A DNA stretch of 32,903 nucleotides from Patescibacteria group bacterium (GTDB lineage Bacteria; Patescibacteriota; Patescibacteriia; 2-12-FULL-60-25): NCBI GenBank assembly GCA_029210915.1, contig JARGGJ010000018.1:1-32903 (forward strand), read 5' to 3'. The first letter of the stretch is position 1, and every line of letters begins with the position of its first letter. Shown in pieces: positions 2,166-31,615 of this stretch. Position numbers and translations under genes: made by a program. The notes below the pieces were generated by a model, which worked only from the letters and a program-made list of their open reading frames with translations, was not told the DNA's origin and made no database searches.

Positions 2166-2242
2166 GGCGAGGTAGCTCAGTTGGTTAGAGCGCGGGACTC
2201 ATAAGCCCGAGGTCGTGGGTTCGATCCCCACCCTCGCTACCA
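2166..2242 (+). tRNA. tRNA-Met(CAT), elongator
   Basis: Acceptor GGCGAGG (2166-2172) pairs with CCTCGCT (2232-2238) with one G-T pair at 1-72. D arm GCTC/GAGC, anticodon loop CTCATAA, T arm GTGGG-TTCGATC-CCCAC, and CCA is encoded (2240-2242). Position 31-39 is an A-G mismatch next to the loop. The paired 1-72 end separates it from the initiator tRNA at 3505. A CAT tRNA could also be the lysidine-modified tRNA-Ile; I prefer elongator Met. Confidence 0.9.
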
Positions 2243-2365
2243 CGTAAAAAGCCGCTTAGAATAATAGGCGGCTTTTTACGTGCCCCGTGATTAATGAAGC
2301 AATAGAATAATTACCGAAATTAATTTTACGGGGCAAAGCATCTATAAGTATCGGCTTCACGTGGT
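2241..2365 (+). repeat. tRNA-trailing structured unit, copy 1
   Basis: It begins with a 15-bp perfect hairpin, CACGTAAAAAGCCGC with its complement, starting in the tRNA CCA. A second stem pairs CCCCGT with ACGGGG. It ends with CGGCTTCACGTGG, which can pair back with the CCACGT at the tRNA end and so close the whole unit. This copy lacks the hairpin insertion found in copies 2 and 3 after GTGCCCCG. The leading hairpin with its T run probably also terminates the tRNA transcript. Confidence 0.75.
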
Positions 2366-2380
2366 ACAGCCCCTCCAAAT

Positions 2381-2528
2381 GCCGCTTAGAATAATAGGCG
2401 GCTTTTTACGTGCCCCGCGTAAAGTGACTTCGTCACTACGCGGCGCTGCCGTGATTATGAGTGAACGTGGATCTGATGGATATCAGATTTACATGGCTTA
2501 GTATTTATAGTACCGGCTTCACGTGGCA
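2381..2528 (+). repeat. tRNA-trailing structured unit, copy 2
   Basis: Same start (GCCGCTTAGAATAATAGGCG) and same end (CCGGCTTCACGTGGCAC) as copy 1. Relative to copy 1 it carries a 34-nt palindromic insert at 2418-2451 between GCCCCG and TGATTA, plus a palindrome at 2471-2488 (ATCTGAT-GGAT-ATCAGAT). Confidence 0.8.
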
Positions 2529-3504: not shown

Positions 3505-3580
3505 CGCGGGGTAGAGCAGTTGGCAGCTCGCCAGGCCCATAACCTGGAGGTCGTAGGTTCAAGTCCTACCCCCGCAACCA
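3505..3580 (+). tRNA. Initiator tRNA-fMet(CAT) with C33
   Basis: Acceptor CGCGGGG (3505-3511) faces CCCCGCA (3570-3576), leaving the C1-A72 mismatch that marks bacterial initiators. A11-T24 in the D stem also fits an initiator. CCA is encoded. Two features are odd. The anticodon loop reads CCCATAA, so position 33 is C instead of the near-universal U. The stem is CCAGG/CCTGG, so base pair 29-41 is A-T and the usual run of three G-C pairs is reduced to two. Confidence 0.93.
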
Positions 3581-3737
3581 CGTAAAAAGCCGCTTAGAAT
3601 AATAGGCGGCTTTTTACGTGCCTCGCGTAAAGTGACTTCGTCACCACGCGACGCTGCCGTGATTATGAATGAACGTGGATCTGATGGATATCAGATTTAC
3701 GAGGCAAAGCATCTATAAGTACCGGCTTCACGTGGCA
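3577..3737 (+). repeat. tRNA-trailing structured unit, copy 3
   Basis: The same unit as behind tRNA-Met, now behind the initiator tRNA. It has the leading 15-bp hairpin, a 34-nt palindromic insert at 3626-3659 almost identical to that of copy 2, the ATCTGAT-GGAT-ATCAGAT palindrome (3679-3696), and the closing CCGGCTTCACGTGGCAC. Confidence 0.8.
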
Positions 3738-3812
3738 CGCCTTGTAAAAAGCCACATAGAATTTGTGGTTTTTTAGTTACAATAAATTTCAGTGGTGGCT
3801 TCACGTGGCGCC
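3738..3812 (+). repeat. tRNA-trailing unit, short copy 4, with terminator
   Basis: A hairpin AAAAAGCCACA...TGTGGTTTTTT (3746-3775) acts as a likely terminator. The copy ends with GTGGCTTCACGTGGCGCC, the same closing motif as the other units. Confidence 0.6.
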
Positions 3813-13422: not shown

Positions 13423-13977
13423 TTAGTAGCCGGAGAGGTAGCCGCCACCGCCATAATAGGCGGGTTGGCCCCAGGTGGAACGTCGTTCACGGACCATGAC
13501 TTGCTCCATACAGAGGCTTTTTTCCTCACCTCCGGGGAGCTGACCAAGGCGATTGAGGCAGGATTCGTATTCACGGGTACGGCCATCGCAGTAGCCTGTT
13601 TGACTCATGCCATACTGGCCGAGACAGCCGTTGTAGAAACCGGCATAGGGAGTATTACCCCAAATGCGGGTTCGTTCTTCGGCATGGATGCGCTCGCGGG
13701 CGTAGCTATCTTCCGCGTCTCCGGGCAAGTCGCCGATTTCGGCTTTGTAGGCTTCGTAGCGCGATGTATCGCGCTTCACATGCAGATCCGAGCCCCAGGG
13801 GCCGTATTCTGCGCGGGTTTCCATGGTTTTGCGGCCATTTACCTCGGAGCTCATGGTGTTGGTGCTCCAACAACCCGTTGCAAATATTCCCAATGCCATC
13901 AAGAAACCCCACTTCGCCCCTCCATGCGTCAGGGCTACGAGGGGCAGGCAAGTTATAAACAACTGATATTTCCTCAT
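13423..13977 (-). CDS. Lipoprotein with an internally duplicated domain
   Basis: 184 aa, no family recognised. It has a long N-terminal region and lipobox FATGC at Cys36. The mature part holds two related units: residues about 74-118 (YEAYKAEIGDLPGDAED then ERTRIWGNTPYAGFY) and about 138-180 (YESCLNRLGQLPGGEEK then ERRSTWGQPAYYGGG). The shared core is LPG-E...RERR-WG-P-YYG. The second unit has extra Cys residues. Ribosome site AAAAGGAG lies 8 nt before the ATG. It has its own promoter (14081-14109) and terminator. Confidence 0.8.
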   Translation of the reverse strand: MRKYQLFITCLPLVALTHGGAKWGFLMALGIFATGCWSTNTMSSEVNGRKTMETRAEYGPWGSDLHVKRDTSRYEAYKAEIGDLPGDAEDSYARERIHAEERTRIWGNTPYAGFYNGCLGQYGMSQTGYCDGRTREYESCLNRLGQLPGGEEKSLCMEQVMVRERRSTWGQPAYYGGGGYLSGY

Positions 13978-18019: not shown

Positions 18020-18308
18020 ATCAGCTACAATAATCAATAACCAAATTCCAATATCCAATGAAGGTGTCGAGCTAGGCTCGAATTTTTATTTATGTAGAGC
18101 GGAGTTTTTAGTGTTTGTGGGGTGACAAAACCCCTCTAAATCCCTGCCCGCAACGCTTCGCTTGCGAGGCAGGCGGGTCCCCTTGTCAGGGGAGACTTGT
18201 AACTTTATACGCCACTCCCCCATCTCCTTCCGCCAAGAAGGTATAGCGATGGTTAAACCCCCTAAATCCCCCTTGTCCCACGATGCTCTTCGAGCTATGA
18301 GGGACGCG
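18020..18308. repeat. Gene-free stretch with two interrupted copies of the C-rich dispersed repeat
   Basis: CAATAACCAAATTCCAATAT words (from 18032) are followed by the palindrome TCGAGC-TAG-GCTCGA (about 18067-18081). Then come two copies of a dispersed repeat, AACCCCTCTAAATC...CCTTGTCAGGGG-GACTT. Copy one is split at 18145-18178 by a 34-nt palindrome. Copy two is split at 18278-18310 by a 33-nt palindrome with stem GTCCC/GGGAC, falling in the loop of the CCCCCT-TGTC-AGGGGG hairpin of the parent. Confidence 0.8.
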
Positions 18309-20093
18309 TCAGGGGGACTTGTTGATTATATAGGCTTTACCGCCATTACCTTCAGCTAAAAAAGTATATCGTTCATCTGTAGCAATCATTTGATCCAGTT
18401 CAGGCCAGCGCTCATTATCGATCAAGATAAAATTTGAATGCAAGCGATCATGGATTAAACTATAAGTATCGGCTTGTGTTGATGATGAATTAAAAACCAA
18501 GTTTTGATAGTCGAGGGCGAGGGTGGAACTGGATTTGTAGAGGAAGGTTGGGTCGAGGCCCGAGATGTAGCGGAGGTTTTGATTGTGAAAAAAGAGGATG
18601 GGGAATTCATCCCACATGGAGTTGTAGACTCTGTCGCCGGGCTTCGCGATGGCGGAGATTGCATCCATGGGGGTTTTATATTGATTATTAAAAAAGCGCT
18701 TGGCAAAATGCATATCCGAATAGGCGGAGACTGTGTGCTGGACTAATATCATTACTATGGTGAAGAGGATGACTGAGGGAACTAATAAATCGAATTTCGT
18801 ATTTCGAATTTCGTATTTCGCGGTTGGAAGTTTTAATTTGTTGTAGAGATTTTTCCAGTTGATTAGTTGGGCAAGGAGGGCGGTTTGCAGGGCGAGCAGT
18901 GGTTGGAAGTATTCGGTGAAGCGGAGGCTTTTAATCGAGGCGATGAAAAGCAAGATTAGAAGCGGAAGCAGTGTTATCGCTAATCGTATTTCGTATTTCC
19001 CTCGACCTGAGCTCGGGACGAAGGTCGTATTTCGTATTTCGCTGTTATTGCTCTTGCTATTTGCTATTTGATATTTGCCATTTGATAGGATTGATTCGAG
19101 CAAAGTGAGTAGTAAAATAATTGCGAAGACTCCGAACATGCTGATGATGCTTTCGATTGAGCTTGTGTTCCATTCTGTGCCCATGCGGAGGATGCGAGGA
19201 GTAGCTACGGCGACGTCGAAAAGTTGGACTTTTAGGAAACTTAACAACTCGGAGCGGTTTGGATGAACAATAAGACCCGCCAGACATCCTGTGATGCTTG
19301 CCACTAACATGAACAACGAATTACGAACAACGAACTTCGATTTTTGAAGAAAGAGGTAACTTAGGATTATGACAAATATTGAAACCGGGAGGAGGATCCA
19401 GCCGCCGTGGGTGAGGGTGAAGAGGAAACTTAAAAGGCTGATAGCTGATAGCTGATCCCACTTCGCTAAAGCTTTGAGGGACACGTAGCGGATAGCGAAA
19501 AAATTTGGTTGTTTTAAACTCACCCCCTTCGCCCCCTCTCTTAAGATTAATAGAGGGGGTGTTTCTAAGTTTACTTTTAGCCCCTCTCTTGATCTTAAGA
19601 GAGGGGTTGGGGTGAGTTTATCCCGTTGCAAACAAAACAAAACCACTCCAATTCCAACAAACCAAAATAGAATCGCGAGTGGCGAGGCTTTGCCTTGGAT
19701 TAGGCGAGTGGTAAAGGGTTGGGTGAATGCGAGGAGGATGGGCCAGAGCCACCAGGGTTTTAGTTTAAGTTTGTAAAAGATGAGTGATATGCCAAGCATG
19801 CAGAGAACCGCGAAAAAGATGGATGAGATGCGGGAGGCTGTGAGCGGATCGAAGATCTTTAAGAAAGGGATTTGTAAAACGTGAAATAAAAAGTGTTGAT
19901 CGGCAAAGTGAGATCCGAGGGTTGTGAGATCCAACCAAGTAAAATCAGTTAGCGGACCCTGTTCAGATATCAGCTTTGCGACGGTAATGTGATAGAAAGC
20001 GTCGGGATCTGCGAAGCGATCCCGCGGGGTGATAAAAGAAAACCAGCTTAAGAAAAAGATGGTGAGAGCAATAAATATATATTTGGTTTTCAT
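18309..20093 (-). CDS. Polytopic glycosyltransferase-like membrane protein (GT39/STT3-like topology)
   Basis: About 594 aa with ten or more hydrophobic segments. Early in the first outer loop is RDRFADPDAFYHITVAKL, the Asp-rich motif and following His expected for GT-C enzymes that use lipid-linked sugars. A soluble C-terminal part follows the last helix. I start at the ATG at 20093; the upstream TTG is less likely. Several word repeats are read in frame (18791-18821, 18984-19085, 19440-19625), giving KYEIRNTKF-type and repeat-derived segments, and two hairpin inserts of 27 and 30 nt keep the frame. The stop TGA and last codons (NKSP) come from the dispersed C-rich repeat. Confidence 0.75.
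   Translation of the reverse strand: MKTKYIFIALTIFFLSWFSFITPRDRFADPDAFYHITVAKLISEQGPLTDFTWLDLTTLGSHFADQHFLFHVLQIPFLKIFDPLTASRISSIFFAVLCMLGISLIFYKLKLKPWWLWPILLAFTQPFTTRLIQGKASPLAILFWFVGIGVVLFCLQRDKLTPTPLLRSREGLKVNLETPPLLILREGAKGVSLKQPNFFAIRYVSLKALAKWDQLSAISLLSFLFTLTHGGWILLPVSIFVIILSYLFLQKSKFVVRNSLFMLVASITGCLAGLIVHPNRSELLSFLKVQLFDVAVATPRILRMGTEWNTSSIESIISMFGVFAIILLLTLLESILSNGKYQIANSKSNNSEIRNTTFVPSSGRGKYEIRLAITLLPLLILLFIASIKSLRFTEYFQPLLALQTALLAQLINWKNLYNKLKLPTAKYEIRNTKFDLLVPSVILFTIVMILVQHTVSAYSDMHFAKRFFNNQYKTPMDAISAIAKPGDRVYNSMWDEFPILFFHNQNLRYISGLDPTFLYKSSSTLALDYQNLVFNSSSTQADTYSLIHDRLHSNFILIDNERWPELDQMIATDERYTFLAEGNGGKAYIINKSP
18791..18821 (-). repeat. ATTTCG word repeat inside a coding region
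   Basis: CGAATTTCGTATTTCGAATT and continuing words, read in frame as KYEIRNTKFD. Related copies occur at 18984-19043 and in YchF (26883-26912). Confidence 0.8.
18984..19085 (-). repeat. ATTTCG and ATTTGC words with a 27-nt hairpin insert, in frame
   Basis: CGTATTTC words are split at 19000-19026 by an insert holding CGACCT/AGGTCG. Then TTGCTATTTGCTATTTGATA words follow. The reading frame of the host gene stays open. Confidence 0.75.
19440..19625 (-). repeat. GATAGCTGATAGC words, a 30-nt hairpin insert and C-rich hairpins, in frame
   Basis: GCTGATAGCTGAT is split from AGCGGATAGC by 30 nt (19457-19486; CCCACTTCGCTAAAGCTTTG then AGGGACACGT), ten codons. Two further hairpins follow: CACCCCC/GGGGGTG and CCCCTCTCTTGATCTTAAGA with its partner. 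All are translated. Confidence 0.75.
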
Positions 20094-20283: not shown

Positions 20284-20682
20284 TTATTGCGCGACGTTGA
20301 TGAGCGAGCCCAAAACGAAGTTTGAGATTGCGAATGCCGCTACGATGATAAGAAGGCCGATAATGGCGTTTCTGATCATGGTTGTTGCTGTTTTAACTTT
20401 ACCTTCATCGCCACCGGCAGTCATCCAGAGGAAGCCAGCGTAGAGGATGTAGACCAAGAGCAAGATACCAATGAAGCCTAAGGCCACGTTGATGAGGCGA
20501 CCGACTACATCGGGCAAACTTGCATCTGCAGCGGTTCCGATATCAGCGCTATCACCTACAGACTTAACGTTTTCTTGCGCTGTAGTAAAAACACCCTGAG
20601 CCGAAGCCATTGCCGGCAAAGCTAGTGCACCTGCGGCTGCTGTATAGTAACAAGATTTTAAAAATGTTTTCATAGTTTGCAT
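20284..20682 (-). CDS. VirB2/TrbC-like pilin 1
   Basis: 132 aa. A signal peptide (about residues 6-28, ending AMASA) is followed by a short polar segment and two hydrophobic helices (about 61-87 and 104-128) joined by the loop MTAGGDEGKVKTATTMIRNA. This layout is that of VirB2/TrbC pilins, which form conjugative or type IV secretion pili and are common as orphans in candidate-phyla bacteria. No VirB4-like ATPase is in the window. AAAGGA precedes the ATG. Last gene of the minus-strand set. Confidence 0.85.
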   Translation of the reverse strand: MQTMKTFLKSCYYTAAAGALALPAMASAQGVFTTAQENVKSVGDSADIGTAADASLPDVVGRLINVALGFIGILLLVYILYAGFLWMTAGGDEGKVKTATTMIRNAIIGLLIIVAAFAISNFVLGSLINVAQ

Positions 20683-20709
20683 TAATTCCTTTATTCTTAA
20701 TTTGTGCGT

Positions 20710-21159
20710 TTAAGGTATACTCGATGTTCCACCTCCACCCAGACCGGCTAATAGCGCATTCAGAATTTCGTTGGATATTACAAACGACAAGCCGATGATA
20801 AAGATACCAATGATGGCATTACGAATCATGGTTGTTGCTTGTTTTACTTTGCCTTCATCTCCCCCGGCAGTCATCCAGAGGAAGCCTGCCCAGATGAGAT
20901 AAACAAGGAGAAGTACGCCAACAAGTGTAAGGACAGAGTTGATAAGATTGCCTACGATTTGAGGAGCGGTTTGCTCTGTTTTTCCCAAATCACCGGCTGC
21001 GGTTTTTAAGCCACTCGACATCTCTGCCAAACCGGCGTGGGTTGCCGGAGCAAAAGCTAACGCTGTACCAAACAAAATTGCCGAGATGGCAAAAAAGCGC
21101 ACAAAGTTGCTTGCCGAAAGTATTTGCTTAACCGATTTGAATATTTTATTTGGCTCCAT
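20710..21159 (-). CDS. VirB2/TrbC-like pilin 2
   Basis: 149 aa. Signal peptide to about residue 41, two hydrophobic helices at about 70-93 and 110-135, and the same loop MTAGGDEGKVKQATTMIRNA as pilin 1, so the two are recent duplicates. The C-terminus has a Gly-rich tail (AGLGGGGTSS) absent from pilin 1. It is 27 nt upstream of pilin 1. Confidence 0.85.
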   Translation of the reverse strand: MEPNKIFKSVKQILSASNFVRFFAISAILFGTALAFAPATHAGLAEMSSGLKTAAGDLGKTEQTAPQIVGNLINSVLTLVGVLLLVYLIWAGFLWMTAGGDEGKVKQATTMIRNAIIGIFIIGLSFVISNEILNALLAGLGGGGTSSIP

Positions 21160-21181
21160 ACTTAAGAACTTGGAATAAAGG

Positions 21182-21574
21182 TTATTGCGTTGCTTCGATT
21201 AACTGACCGATTACGAAACTGGTGATTGCCCAACCGGAAAGGATAATTGCGAGACCAATGATACCCGAGATGATCCATCCGCGAGCTTCTTTGGTTTTGC
21301 CTTCGTCTCCACCGGCGATCATATATTTGAAACCACCGACGAGAACGATAACAACTGCGATGATACCCAAGAAACCGAGAGCTACGTTGATGATGTTCGC
21401 TATGGTTTGGCGAAGATCACTGCCCTCACCTCCCGAGAGTGCTAAACTTTCATCTAAAGCACCTACACCCAATGTATTAGCAGTTAAGGTAGGTTTTTGA
21501 GCTAAAACGCCCGCTACCGGCAACATAATCGCGAGAGCGATAATGAAAGCTGTTATCTGTTTTGTTATTTTCAT
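21182..21574 (-). CDS. VirB2/TrbC-like pilin 3
   Basis: 130 aa. Signal peptide (2-25), two hydrophobic helices, loop MIAGGDEGKTKEARGWIISG. It differs more from pilins 1 and 2 but has the same plan. It has the best ribosome site of the set (AAAGGAGGTG, 7-8 nt before the ATG) and an extended -10 (TGCTATAAT) upstream, so it may be the first gene of a separate transcript after the repeat insertion at 21630-21910. Confidence 0.85.
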   Translation of the reverse strand: MKITKQITAFIIALAIMLPVAGVLAQKPTLTANTLGVGALDESLALSGGEGSDLRQTIANIINVALGFLGIIAVVIVLVGGFKYMIAGGDEGKTKEARGWIISGIIGLAIILSGWAITSFVIGQLIEATQ

Positions 21575-21611
21575 TTACTTACACCTCCTTTCATATTTTA
21601 TTTATACACAT

Positions 21612-21620
21612 TATAGCATA
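21612..21620 (-). promoter_or_regulatory. Extended -10 for pilin 3
   Basis: Minus strand TGCTATAAT (21612-21620 region), about 40 nt before the ATG; no clear -35. It would let pilins 1-3 be transcribed apart from the upstream genes. Confidence 0.5.
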
Positions 21621-21629
21621 CAAATCTGA

Positions 21630-21910
21630 AAAATCACCAATCACCAAGTTCCAATAACCAAATTCCAATATCCAATAAATAACCAAAGTTGAAATAACCA
21701 ATTGATAATCACACAAATATTTACCAAATACTTACCAAGATACAAATATTTATCAAACTGCAATCAATAACCAAATAATAACCTTTTTCCGAAGTCTCCC
21801 ATGACAAGGGGAGATTTAGAGGGGTTGTGCCATCCAAGCTACAAAAACCAATTGATTATTATGTTATTGGTTTATTGGATGTTTATTGATGATTGTTATA
21901 TTGGTGATTG
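21630..21910. mobile_element. Inverted CAATAACCAA word element within the pilin operon, with a nested repeat
   Basis: AATCACCAATCACCAAGTTC-type words on the left face GGTGATTGGTTATT-type words on the right. Nested inside is a copy (about 21795-21830) of the dispersed C-rich repeat AAGTCTCCCATGACAAGGGG that is the same over about 36 nt as the copy at 29595. No gene is present. Confidence 0.7.
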
Positions 21911-21922
21911 GTTATTGCTATT

Positions 21923-22735
21923 TTATAGCGCACCAATGAATGAACCAAATATGTAGTCAAGGATTACGTAGGAGAACATAACAATGGCGACACCGATAAC
22001 TGCATTAACTAAAGTCGTTCTGCCTTTGGCGGCTTTGTTGGCGTCGTTGCTGAAAATAATAAACTGCATTCCTCCCCAAACAAACATTATAAGAAATATT
22101 GTACCTGATAAGGTTAATAGCCAGTTTATAACTCTTTGAATAACTCCAATGACAACTTTGGTTGGGCTCCCGTCAGCAACACACGGTACTACCAACCCGG
22201 TAGATTTTTCCACACAGCCGGCCCCGATTGGTTTATCTTTTTGACTTTCTTCTGCGGTGCTTGAAGCTGCAGCAGCAGCTTCTTCCGATCCGGGTGCTTC
22301 GCCCTCGGGGGTAACTATTCCGGTTGCGCAACAAACGTAGGTTTGATTACTGCAGGTGCCATTTCCTGCCAGTGGATCTGAAGCTTTTTTCCCGATATCG
22401 CCCGAAGGGCACTGACTCGAGGGTACGCATGTTCCTGAACAGTCATCTGATCCTGATACAATTGGTTCGCATTTCCATTGGCAACAAGATTTTCCTATCG
22501 CAGTACAGTCTGTTGTAAACTTGCACTGTGAAGTTCCTTTGGTTCCGGCGGGGCAATTTTTTGAAGCGGTTTCCCCAACTGTTAAACCTTGCGCCGGAGC
22601 CACACAGCCGGCCGTATATTCCGGAGTCCAGGCCGTGCAAGTATCCGCGCTGGCATTATTTATTGATGCTAAAAACAATCCTCCAAATAAAAGCGAAATA
22701 AACAGGATTGGAAATGTAATAATTTTATTTTGCAT
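21923..22735 (-). CDS. VirB2-like protein with cysteine-rich ectodomain
   Basis: 270 aa. Signal peptide (1-30), then a Cys-rich region 33-138 containing about 15 Cys with CC pairs (SCCQWKC, YVCCATG), a linker rich in Ala and Glu, and a C-terminal two-helix module (about 195-228 and 240-265) with the loop SNDANKAAKGRTTLVNAVIG. That module equals the pilin plan of genes 20284-21574. So a disulfide-rich outer domain is fused in front of a VirB2-like membrane module. It starts 5 nt after the preceding gene. Confidence 0.8.
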   Translation of the reverse strand: MQNKIITFPILFISLLFGGLFLASINNASADTCTAWTPEYTAGCVAPAQGLTVGETASKNCPAGTKGTSQCKFTTDCTAIGKSCCQWKCEPIVSGSDDCSGTCVPSSQCPSGDIGKKASDPLAGNGTCSNQTYVCCATGIVTPEGEAPGSEEAAAAASSTAEESQKDKPIGAGCVEKSTGLVVPCVADGSPTKVVIGVIQRVINWLLTLSGTIFLIMFVWGGMQFIIFSNDANKAAKGRTTLVNAVIGVAIVMFSYVILDYIFGSFIGAL

Positions 22736-29549: not shown

Positions 29550-29563
29550 TATCGGACACAACC

Positions 29564-29636
29564 CCCAACCCCCTTGTCAGGGGGCTGTATATCAAGTCTC
29601 CCATGACAAGGGGAGATTTAGAGGGGTTGAGCTTTG
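29564..29636. repeat. Dispersed C-rich repeat, two copies
   Basis: CCCAACCCCCTTGTCAGGGG is followed by AAGTCTCCCATGACAAGGGG with AGATTTAGAGGGGTTG. The second is the same as the copy at 21795. Its MTRGDLEGL reading gives a false N-terminal extension to the next gene. Confidence 0.8.
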
Positions 29637-29662
29637 TACTACTTTCTGTCATACTCCGCTTC

Positions 29663-31468
29663 ATGTCTACAGTATTGCAGATTCAAGATTTATCCAAAAC
29701 TTTCGGAACTCGACAGTTGTTTAGTGATGCGAGTGTTACTATTTGCATAGGGCAAAGAGTTGGGTTGATTGGAGCGAATGGATCGGGGAAGACAACGCTG
29801 ATGCGGATGATTTTGGGGCAAGAGAAACCCGAGGAAGGCAAGATAATTATTTACCCGGATATGAAGTTGGGGTATTTGGAGCAGAACGAGGAATATCCGG
29901 AAGGAGAAACTGTAATTGATTATTTGGTTAGAGTCTCGGAATGTGAATCTTGGGAGTGCGCTAAGATGGCGGGGAAGTTTGATATAAAGAATGAAAAGCT
30001 GGATGCGGAGTTTTTGAGTTTATCGGGCGGGTATCAGATGAGGGTGAGGATGGCGGGGATTTTGGTGCAAAAGCCGGATCTGTTGCTGCTGGATGAGCCG
30101 ACCAACTATTTGGATTTGCAGACAGTGCTGTTGCTTGAGGAGGTTTTGAAATCATACAGGGGATCATTACTTTTGGTATCGCATGATCGTGAGTTTTTAA
30201 AAAATGTTTGTACGCATACTTTAGAGCTTGAGCATGAAAAGTTTACACTTTTTGCGGGTGATATTGAGGCATATTTTGCGGAAAAAGAAACGCGATTAGA
30301 GATGCAAAGGCGTTACAATAAAAAAGTGCAGATCCAGCAAAGGCATCTTAAAGATTTTGTGGATCGGTTTCGTGCCAAAGCATCTAAAGCTTCGCAAGCT
30401 CAATCTAAAATGAAGCAGTTGGAGAAATTAAAGACGATTGATATCGCGCATTCAACTAGAACGGCGAGAATCAAGTTACCAAGTGTTCCACAGAGAAACG
30501 CGATGGCGCTGGATTGCAGAGATCTTTGTGTTGGATACGCAGAGGGAAAGCCGGTTTTGGCAGATATCAACTTTGAGATTAATCGCGGAGATCATATTGC
30601 GGTTGTGGGTGAGAATGGGCAGGGAAAATCGACATTGTTGAAGACATTAGCCGGTGAATTACAGGAACTGAACGGATCTTTTAAGTGGGGTCATAATTTA
30701 AATGTTGCTTATTACGCTCAACATGTTCCGCAGATGATGCCCGCCAGTGGAACGGCCGGTGACTATTTAAAATCTGTGGCGGATAGAGCCTTGCCCGAGG
30801 AGTTGTATAAGATGGCAGGGAACTTTTTGTTTAGTAAAGATGATTTGGATAAGTCGATTACAGTTTTATCCGGCGGAGAAAAGGCAAGACTTTGCTTAGC
30901 GGGAATTTGCCTTGGTAAATTTGATGTTTTGATTTTGGATGAGCCAACCAATCACTTGGATTTTGATACTGTTGAAGCGCTGGCCGAGGCGCTGGATGAG
31001 TATTCGGGAACTGTAATTTTTGTGAGCCATAGCCGTACGTTTGTATCGCAAATTGCCAATAAGATTTTGGAGATAAAAGATGGATCAGCGAGATACTACC
31101 CCTATAGTTATGAAATCTATGTTTATGAGTTGAAGACGCATGAAACTTTTGTGCCACCGGGCGAGGACAATCGCGGTGTTGAAGGAGAGGTTCCATTTGT
31201 GCGCAGTAAAGCCGATGTGCATGCGGATATGCAGAAGGAAAAGAGATTGCAGAAAAAGTTGGAAGAAACATCGCAAAAATTGACGACTGAAAAAGAGAGA
31301 TTGTTGGCTTGGTTTATCGAGAATACTTCGAAAGTTGATGTAGAAAAAACCAAAAGATTGAAAGAGTTGGATGATGAGATTTTGGATAGTGAATCTCTGT
31401 GGTTTTCTGCCCAGACCAGGTTTGATGCGCTGGAGAAGGAGATGAGTCTAATATCAAATGGCAAATAG
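29663..31468 (+). CDS. ABC-F family ATPase
   Basis: About 601 aa, two ABC domains in one chain and no membrane part. Domain 1: GANGSGKTT, LSGGYQM, LLLLDEPTNYLD, then a charged linker (about 235-270). Domain 2: GENGQGKST, LSGGEKARL, LILDEPTNHLD and a C-terminal coiled coil (about 500-590). ABC-F proteins act on the ribosome, in translation or antibiotic protection; the exact subfamily cannot be assigned. The ATG at 29663 is chosen since the 20 codons upstream lie in a dispersed repeat. The last residues (LISNGK) come from an AATAGCAAATGGC word repeat. Confidence 0.92.
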   Translation: MSTVLQIQDLSKTFGTRQLFSDASVTICIGQRVGLIGANGSGKTTLMRMILGQEKPEEGKIIIYPDMKLGYLEQNEEYPEGETVIDYLVRVSECESWECAKMAGKFDIKNEKLDAEFLSLSGGYQMRVRMAGILVQKPDLLLLDEPTNYLDLQTVLLLEEVLKSYRGSLLLVSHDREFLKNVCTHTLELEHEKFTLFAGDIEAYFAEKETRLEMQRRYNKKVQIQQRHLKDFVDRFRAKASKASQAQSKMKQLEKLKTIDIAHSTRTARIKLPSVPQRNAMALDCRDLCVGYAEGKPVLADINFEINRGDHIAVVGENGQGKSTLLKTLAGELQELNGSFKWGHNLNVAYYAQHVPQMMPASGTAGDYLKSVADRALPEELYKMAGNFLFSKDDLDKSITVLSGGEKARLCLAGICLGKFDVLILDEPTNHLDFDTVEALAEALDEYSGTVIFVSHSRTFVSQIANKILEIKDGSARYYPYSYEIYVYELKTHETFVPPGEDNRGVEGEVPFVRSKADVHADMQKEKRLQKKLEETSQKLTTEKERLLAWFIENTSKVDVEKTKRLKELDDEILDSESLWFSAQTRFDALEKEMSLISNGK

Positions 31469-31615
31469 CAAATGGCAAGAGAAGAATAGGAACTAGATAT
31501 TAATGGCAAATAGCAAGAGAAGAGTGGGTTTATTAAGTTATTTGGGTTTATTTTGAGAGAAGCCATACTTTTACTCAAAATTTTTACTTAACTCTTGCTA
31601 TTTGCTATTTGTTAT
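31440..31615. repeat. Inverted CAAATAGCAAGAG word element
   Basis: AAATGGCAAATAGCAAATGG and CAAATAGCAAGAG on the left face CTCTTGCTATTTGCTATTTG on the right. It overlaps the end of the ABC-F gene and holds no gene. Confidence 0.72.

Follow-up and report, generated by a model that had tools for sequence, protein, structure and literature searches.

A 33-nt palindrome in the loop of a dispersed hairpin repeat, probably a copy of a small hairpin element, in a Patescibacteria genome

Small dispersed repeats (SDRs) are tiny dispersed hairpins that occur in heptameric tandem repeats and in mini-transposons, some of them nested in themselves, and no enzyme is known to mobilise them. They measure 21–27 nt in Nostoc and its relatives, where they were reportedly described by Elhai et al. 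in 2008. To our knowledge, neither a rule linking the hairpin foot to a target base nor insertion into hairpin-loop hosts has been reported for SDRs. The Rickettsia palindromic elements, of about 100–150 nt, are known only from Rickettsiales. REP sequences of the REP/RAYT system (REPtron) are recognised by a GT[AG]G tetranucleotide lying 0–2 nt 5′ of the hairpin foot (PMC6006769). Here we analyse a 33-nt palindrome that splits a hairpin repeat in a window of 32,903 nt, the whole stretch of contig JARGGJ010000018.1 (C9 in our numbering; assembly GCA_029210915.1) from a 1.46-Mb, 98%-complete Patescibacteria genome.

The region reads AACCCCCTAAATCCCCCTTGT (host left), CCCACGATGCTCTTCGAGCTATGAGGGACGCGT (insert) and CAGGGGGACTT (host right). 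The C-rich host hairpin repeat occupies positions 18255–18323 of the plus strand, with the arms CCCCCT at 18268–18273 and AGGGGG at 18311–18316, and its four-base loop TGTC is interrupted as TGT / C by exactly 33 nt. Direct reading bears out the initial annotation in describing this insert as a palindrome within a hairpin loop with stems GTCCC/GGGAC and GCTC-TTC-GAGC. The length was also right, and only the placement shifts: the register of the family described below puts the insert at 18277–18309 (plus strand) instead of 18278–18310, a one-base shift that leaves the insertion itself unchanged because GTC occurs at both ends. That GTC had been noted correctly; as a 3-nt target duplication it is ruled out, since the family register backs a single base only, the T at 18276 (plus strand). 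The insert consists of a core, CCCACGATGCTCTTCGAGCTATGAGGG (18277–18303), and a foot hexamer, ACGCGT (18304–18309). Numbering from the first base after the core, the target T is complementary to +1 and identical to +6. Host and insert together fold into a single long hairpin (−14.1 kcal/mol as DNA, z −3.5, none of 200 shuffles being equally stable; z −3.0 when folded as RNA). The insert most likely represents a dispersed, non-autonomous hairpin element of 30–33 nt, one copy of which entered the exposed four-base loop directly after a T.

The insert abuts the TGA stop of a neighbouring 599-aa gene; this stop, just beyond the insert, is regenerated by the same T, so that the gene is unaffected. 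A degenerate second copy of the gene's 3′ end (RYTFLAEGxGGxAY) follows downstream at 18203–18350, between two host copies, and represents a tandem duplication that has now decayed. Farther along, tandem genes at 20284–22735 include two with matches to PF18895, a pilin family of type IV secretion, and the window DNA repeats D1 and D6 reflect duplicates among them. An analogy drawn earlier with insertion into tRNA loops found no evidence: the three tRNAs of the window are ordinary, and an Rfam search of the window returned nothing beyond tRNAs.

The host repeat is itself dispersed and is often a two-hairpin unit of about 75 nt. Its intact loop, CCCCTTGTCAGGGG, occurs with at most two mismatches at 43 places in the genome, compared with 3 in the control. 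One uninterrupted two-hairpin copy with an empty loop lies in the window at 29560–29640 (plus strand), and the parent hairpin that had been pointed out near 29575 is indeed present there, at 29569–29585. The loop is also intact in copies at 18130–18203 (plus strand) and 21798–21811 (minus strand). A search of 380 class genomes for the host split by 15–45 nt returned one real case, the window copy, and one unrelated match. The copy at 18130–18203 carries a different palindromic insert of 35 nt, CCTGCCCGCAACGCTTCGCTTGCGAGGCAGGCGGG, in its left shoulder (18143–18177); this insert recurs at C48:14476, in the matching position of the host, and once more at C20:1100, in the loop of the hairpin CCCTCTTT[..]AAAGAGGG. 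In the right arm of the host's partner hairpin, a small insert of the CAAAGCTCAGCTTAGCTG type appears to recur (G000 C2:30429, C19:4530, C48:38443 and C49:35502; read directly in C2 and C49).

The 33-nt insert belongs to a family of the form CCCACTWCG-[apical hairpin]-TWCGAGGG followed by six bases. The family pattern CCCACTWCGCTCTWCGAGCTWCGAGGG was found with up to three mismatches at 15 places in the genome (reversed control, 0), and a pattern with a free apex, CCCACTWCG-N6-24-TWCGAGGG, gave 38 strict matches (control, 0). The window copy differs from the family pattern at three of 27 positions and is thus not a fresh insertion. A second member in the window, of the C type, has an enlarged apical loop and reads CCCACTTCGCCC-CTCCATGCGTCA-GGGCTACGAGGG-GCAGGC (13908–13949, plus strand). 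The copy at 18277–18309 is also carried by a genome of the same genus (G001; JAQTXZ010000002, isolate STC_25). A copy was detected in one of 40 family relatives, and 8 of 379 genomes of the phylum, our own included, carry the element at two mismatches or fewer. The exact 27-nt core was recovered from 30 contig stretches in several phyla, the carriers being Roizmanbacteria, Berkelbacteria, Peribacteria, Uhrbacteria and, from two verrucomicrobial groups, a Lentisphaerae bin and Kiritimatiellia bins. The Lentisphaerae bin holds 16 copies on separate contigs and with variants of their own, a pattern that would speak against simple contamination. No copies of the main core were found in viral contigs, plasmids or phages. 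We found no report of such repeats in Patescibacteria, and the family is apparently undescribed as far as could be checked.

Comparison of the copies revealed a simple relation between foot and target, N-CCC...GGG-N′-C-NN-G-N, with N standing for the target base and N′ for the complementary one. Among 56 distinct 34-mers, base −1 is complementary to +1 in 54 (mean 29.9 and maximum 39 in 2000 shuffles) and +1 pairs with +6 in 41 (shuffle mean 25, maximum 34); these counts treat related copies as independent, and the shuffle figures serve as guides, not as probabilities. Base −1 usually equals +6, +2 is almost always C and +5 is mostly G, and G at −1 was seen in none of 124 strict copies. An identical core occurs both with T/A/T and with C/G/C feet. 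Within the hairpin, the alternate mismatches of the outer stem (4/24, 6/22 and 8/20) are nearly invariant and the apical stem shows compensatory TA/CG pair changes. Fixed outer mismatches together with a compensating apical stem are the pattern expected of a hairpin that may be recognised as such.

Insertion into a hairpin loop, as proposed in the initial annotation, recurs in independent hosts and genomes. With random sites from each locus as the reference, joining the flanks after removal of the insert gave a junction-spanning hairpin at p<0.05 for 13 of 24 T-type copies and for none of 27 A- and C-type copies, although several of the T-type loop cases are copies of one Uhrbacteria host. With flank shuffles in a larger set, where nested copies scored poorly, hairpins were found for 20 of 46 T-type, 11 of 57 C-type and 0 of 22 A-type copies. 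Hairpin hosts are rarer among C-type copies, and the A-type copies of simple form occupy 7-base arrays, not loops; both points weigh against loop insertion as a general rule. Among the independent loop hosts are two Uhrbacteria variants besides that of the window, a Peribacter hairpin, several hairpins in Peribacteria and in Roizmanbacteria, and one in Lentisphaerae.

Several hosts exist in both empty and filled forms. Uhrbacteria TrH-25oct19-103 has two of them, CTCCCCCTTGGCAGGGGGAG and CTCCCCCTTTGCAGGGGGAG: each is present as empty copies and as copies interrupted behind CTT by exactly 33 nt, with the C-rich loop junctions CTCCCCCTT / GGCAGGGGGAG and CTCCCCCTT / TGCAGGGGGAG. A hairpin host of our own genome, GGGCGAACACCAGGTTCGC, is empty at L189 and filled with 33 nt at L218 (junction GGGCGAACAC / CAGGTTCGC), and the heptamer array GCAAATAGCAAGAG is likewise present empty and with a 33-nt filling (junction GCAAA / TAGCAAGAG). 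The flanks of A-type copies have a period of 7 (identity 0.45 at lag 7 versus 0.27 in the control), and an AAATAGC-type 7-base tandem array in the window (31468–31530, plus strand) is an empty counterpart of the site that A-type copies fill elsewhere in the genome. The own genome also contains a dispersed composite of about 80 nt, GGCG..ACGGGCGAACA[element]CGAGGTTCGCGCCCTAC, with the element in the loop (L206, L208, L210, L211, L212, L217 and L218). Movement of the element was inferred from such paralogous hosts, close relatives having yielded no orthologous pair of filled and empty sites.

The element is also found inside the apical loop of its own copies. Copies with a CTAAAG apex are split after CTAA by whole element copies, to a depth of two at L209 and L215, two to three at L202 and three to four at L200, and in Roizmanbacteria (L237) one T-type copy sits inside another, directly behind its CTCTT. 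At L215 the outer copy has a C/G foot (C-type) and the inner one an A/T foot (A-type), fitting its target base. Arm numbers are unequal in the nested stacks L200 (4/3), L202 (3/2) and L216 (2/3), so slippage has also acted on the deepest stacks. The L215 locus (G000:C33:70420-70790) adjoins sequence that resembles repeats downstream of the tRNA-Met genes of the window (2240–2510 and 3580–3740).

We propose tentatively, as a possibility somewhat short of probable, that these are cross-phylum mobile hairpins of 30–33 nt in which a single guide base in the foot picks the target, loops are preferred, the element's own loops included, and the enzyme is one not yet recognised. On the favoured reading of the insert as a copy of a dispersed element, the element would move as single-stranded hairpin DNA in the style of IS200 or REP, and foot base N′ would pair with both the target N and the terminal N, so that one base could guide both ends. 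Loops might be targeted for being single-stranded, for instance on the lagging-strand template. Cutting and joining would fall to a trans-acting enzyme; an HUH/Y1 (IS200/REP-like) nuclease is the likeliest candidate, and it may have been lost here or escaped detection. A resident Y1/RAYT enzyme was rejected as mobiliser: no Y1 transposase (PF01797) was found in the own genome or in G736 and G739, two other multi-copy carriers, and no element copies flank the 40 Y1 loci inspected in carriers, of which 24 of 27 have Y1 genes.

Other routes to the same arrangement were weighed against this reading. The one taken most seriously, which we nevertheless judge unlikely, is that the same element spreads through an RNA intermediate, by reverse transcription or RNA-templated repair, and not as HUH-handled single-stranded DNA. 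It would fit a genome without a Y1 gene and a hairpin that folds well as RNA too, and RNA intermediates, reportedly proposed for cyanobacterial SDRs, would offer a precedent; however, there is no evidence of transcription, and the match between foot and target base is more easily explained by pairing with a DNA target. Growth of hairpin tips by template switching or slippage during replication, with no mobile element involved, is very improbable: the unequal arm numbers agree with slippage acting once stacks have formed, but such a process cannot explain how one 27-nt sequence, its conserved mismatches included, comes to stand at sites that are unrelated and in more than one phylum.

The remaining two alternatives concern the host. 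If host and insert had spread together as a composite repeat, the loop position would record one old event and imply no targeting rule, and the filled Uhrbacteria hosts and the GGGCGAAC hosts of the own genome do resemble dispersed composites. Against this, the filled form in the window is unique among about 40 host matches, the same element occupies loops of different hosts in different genomes, both Uhrbacteria host variants have filled as well as empty copies, and self-nested copies of the element occur. We consider composite spread improbable overall, and for the window copy it is already disfavoured. Least probable of all is an ancestral long form from which the short hosts arose by deletion, the outcome that the initial annotation had named as overturning its reading. 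No support for it was found: the genome holds some 40 intact-loop matches and a single split copy, the 33-nt unit was also gained in unrelated hosts, and dozens of intact copies could not each have arisen by a separate, exact loss of a unit found alone elsewhere. The short host form is ancestral; the insertion in the window is derived and, as the split host was found only there, unique.

If mobile hairpins with a one-base guide are indeed at work, they would rank among the smallest known mobile DNAs and would offer a readable target rule, natural empty-site controls and nested stacks that record the order of insertion. Their study could help to show how REP- and SDR-like repeats move, and they might account for a substantial share of the dispersed hairpins seen in some genomes of Patescibacteria.

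Among known systems, the element resembles REP sequences of the TnpA-REP/RAYT type in being a short imperfect hairpin with conserved mismatches (PMC3116915, PMC6006769) and in having a conserved foot tetranucleotide, here C-Y-T-G on the opposite strand and one base from the stem. In contrast to REP, that opposite-strand foot is CYTG/CNNG and not GT[AG]G, the own genome has no TnpA-REP gene and the Y1 genes examined have no flanking element, copies are single or self-nested and do not form inverted doublets (REPINs), and the element is inserted within other repeats. With the subterminal hairpins of IS200/IS605 (IS608, ISDra2) it shares a single-strand logic, a foot guide that pairs with the flanking target and insertion 3′ of a fixed base; it differs in consisting of one hairpin with no transposase gene between two ends, and its one-base guide is putative. 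A MITE was rejected, because the element has neither terminal inverted repeats of a known transposase nor a fixed target duplication, only the single base N being repeated, and no parent transposon was seen. Like the Rickettsia palindromic elements, it is a small palindrome with a length divisible by three that is able to sit in genes, but at 30–33 nt it is far smaller than those elements. The closest likeness is to SDRs: a dispersed hairpin of about 20–35 nt in many copies and without coding capacity, which sits in heptameric tandem repeats and mini-repeats and nests in itself. It is longer than SDRs (30–33 versus 21–27 nt), the likeness being judged by described features and not by sequence, and its hosts are Patescibacteria and verrucomicrobial groups instead of cyanobacteria. 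On these grounds we class the element with small dispersed hairpin elements and not with REPs.
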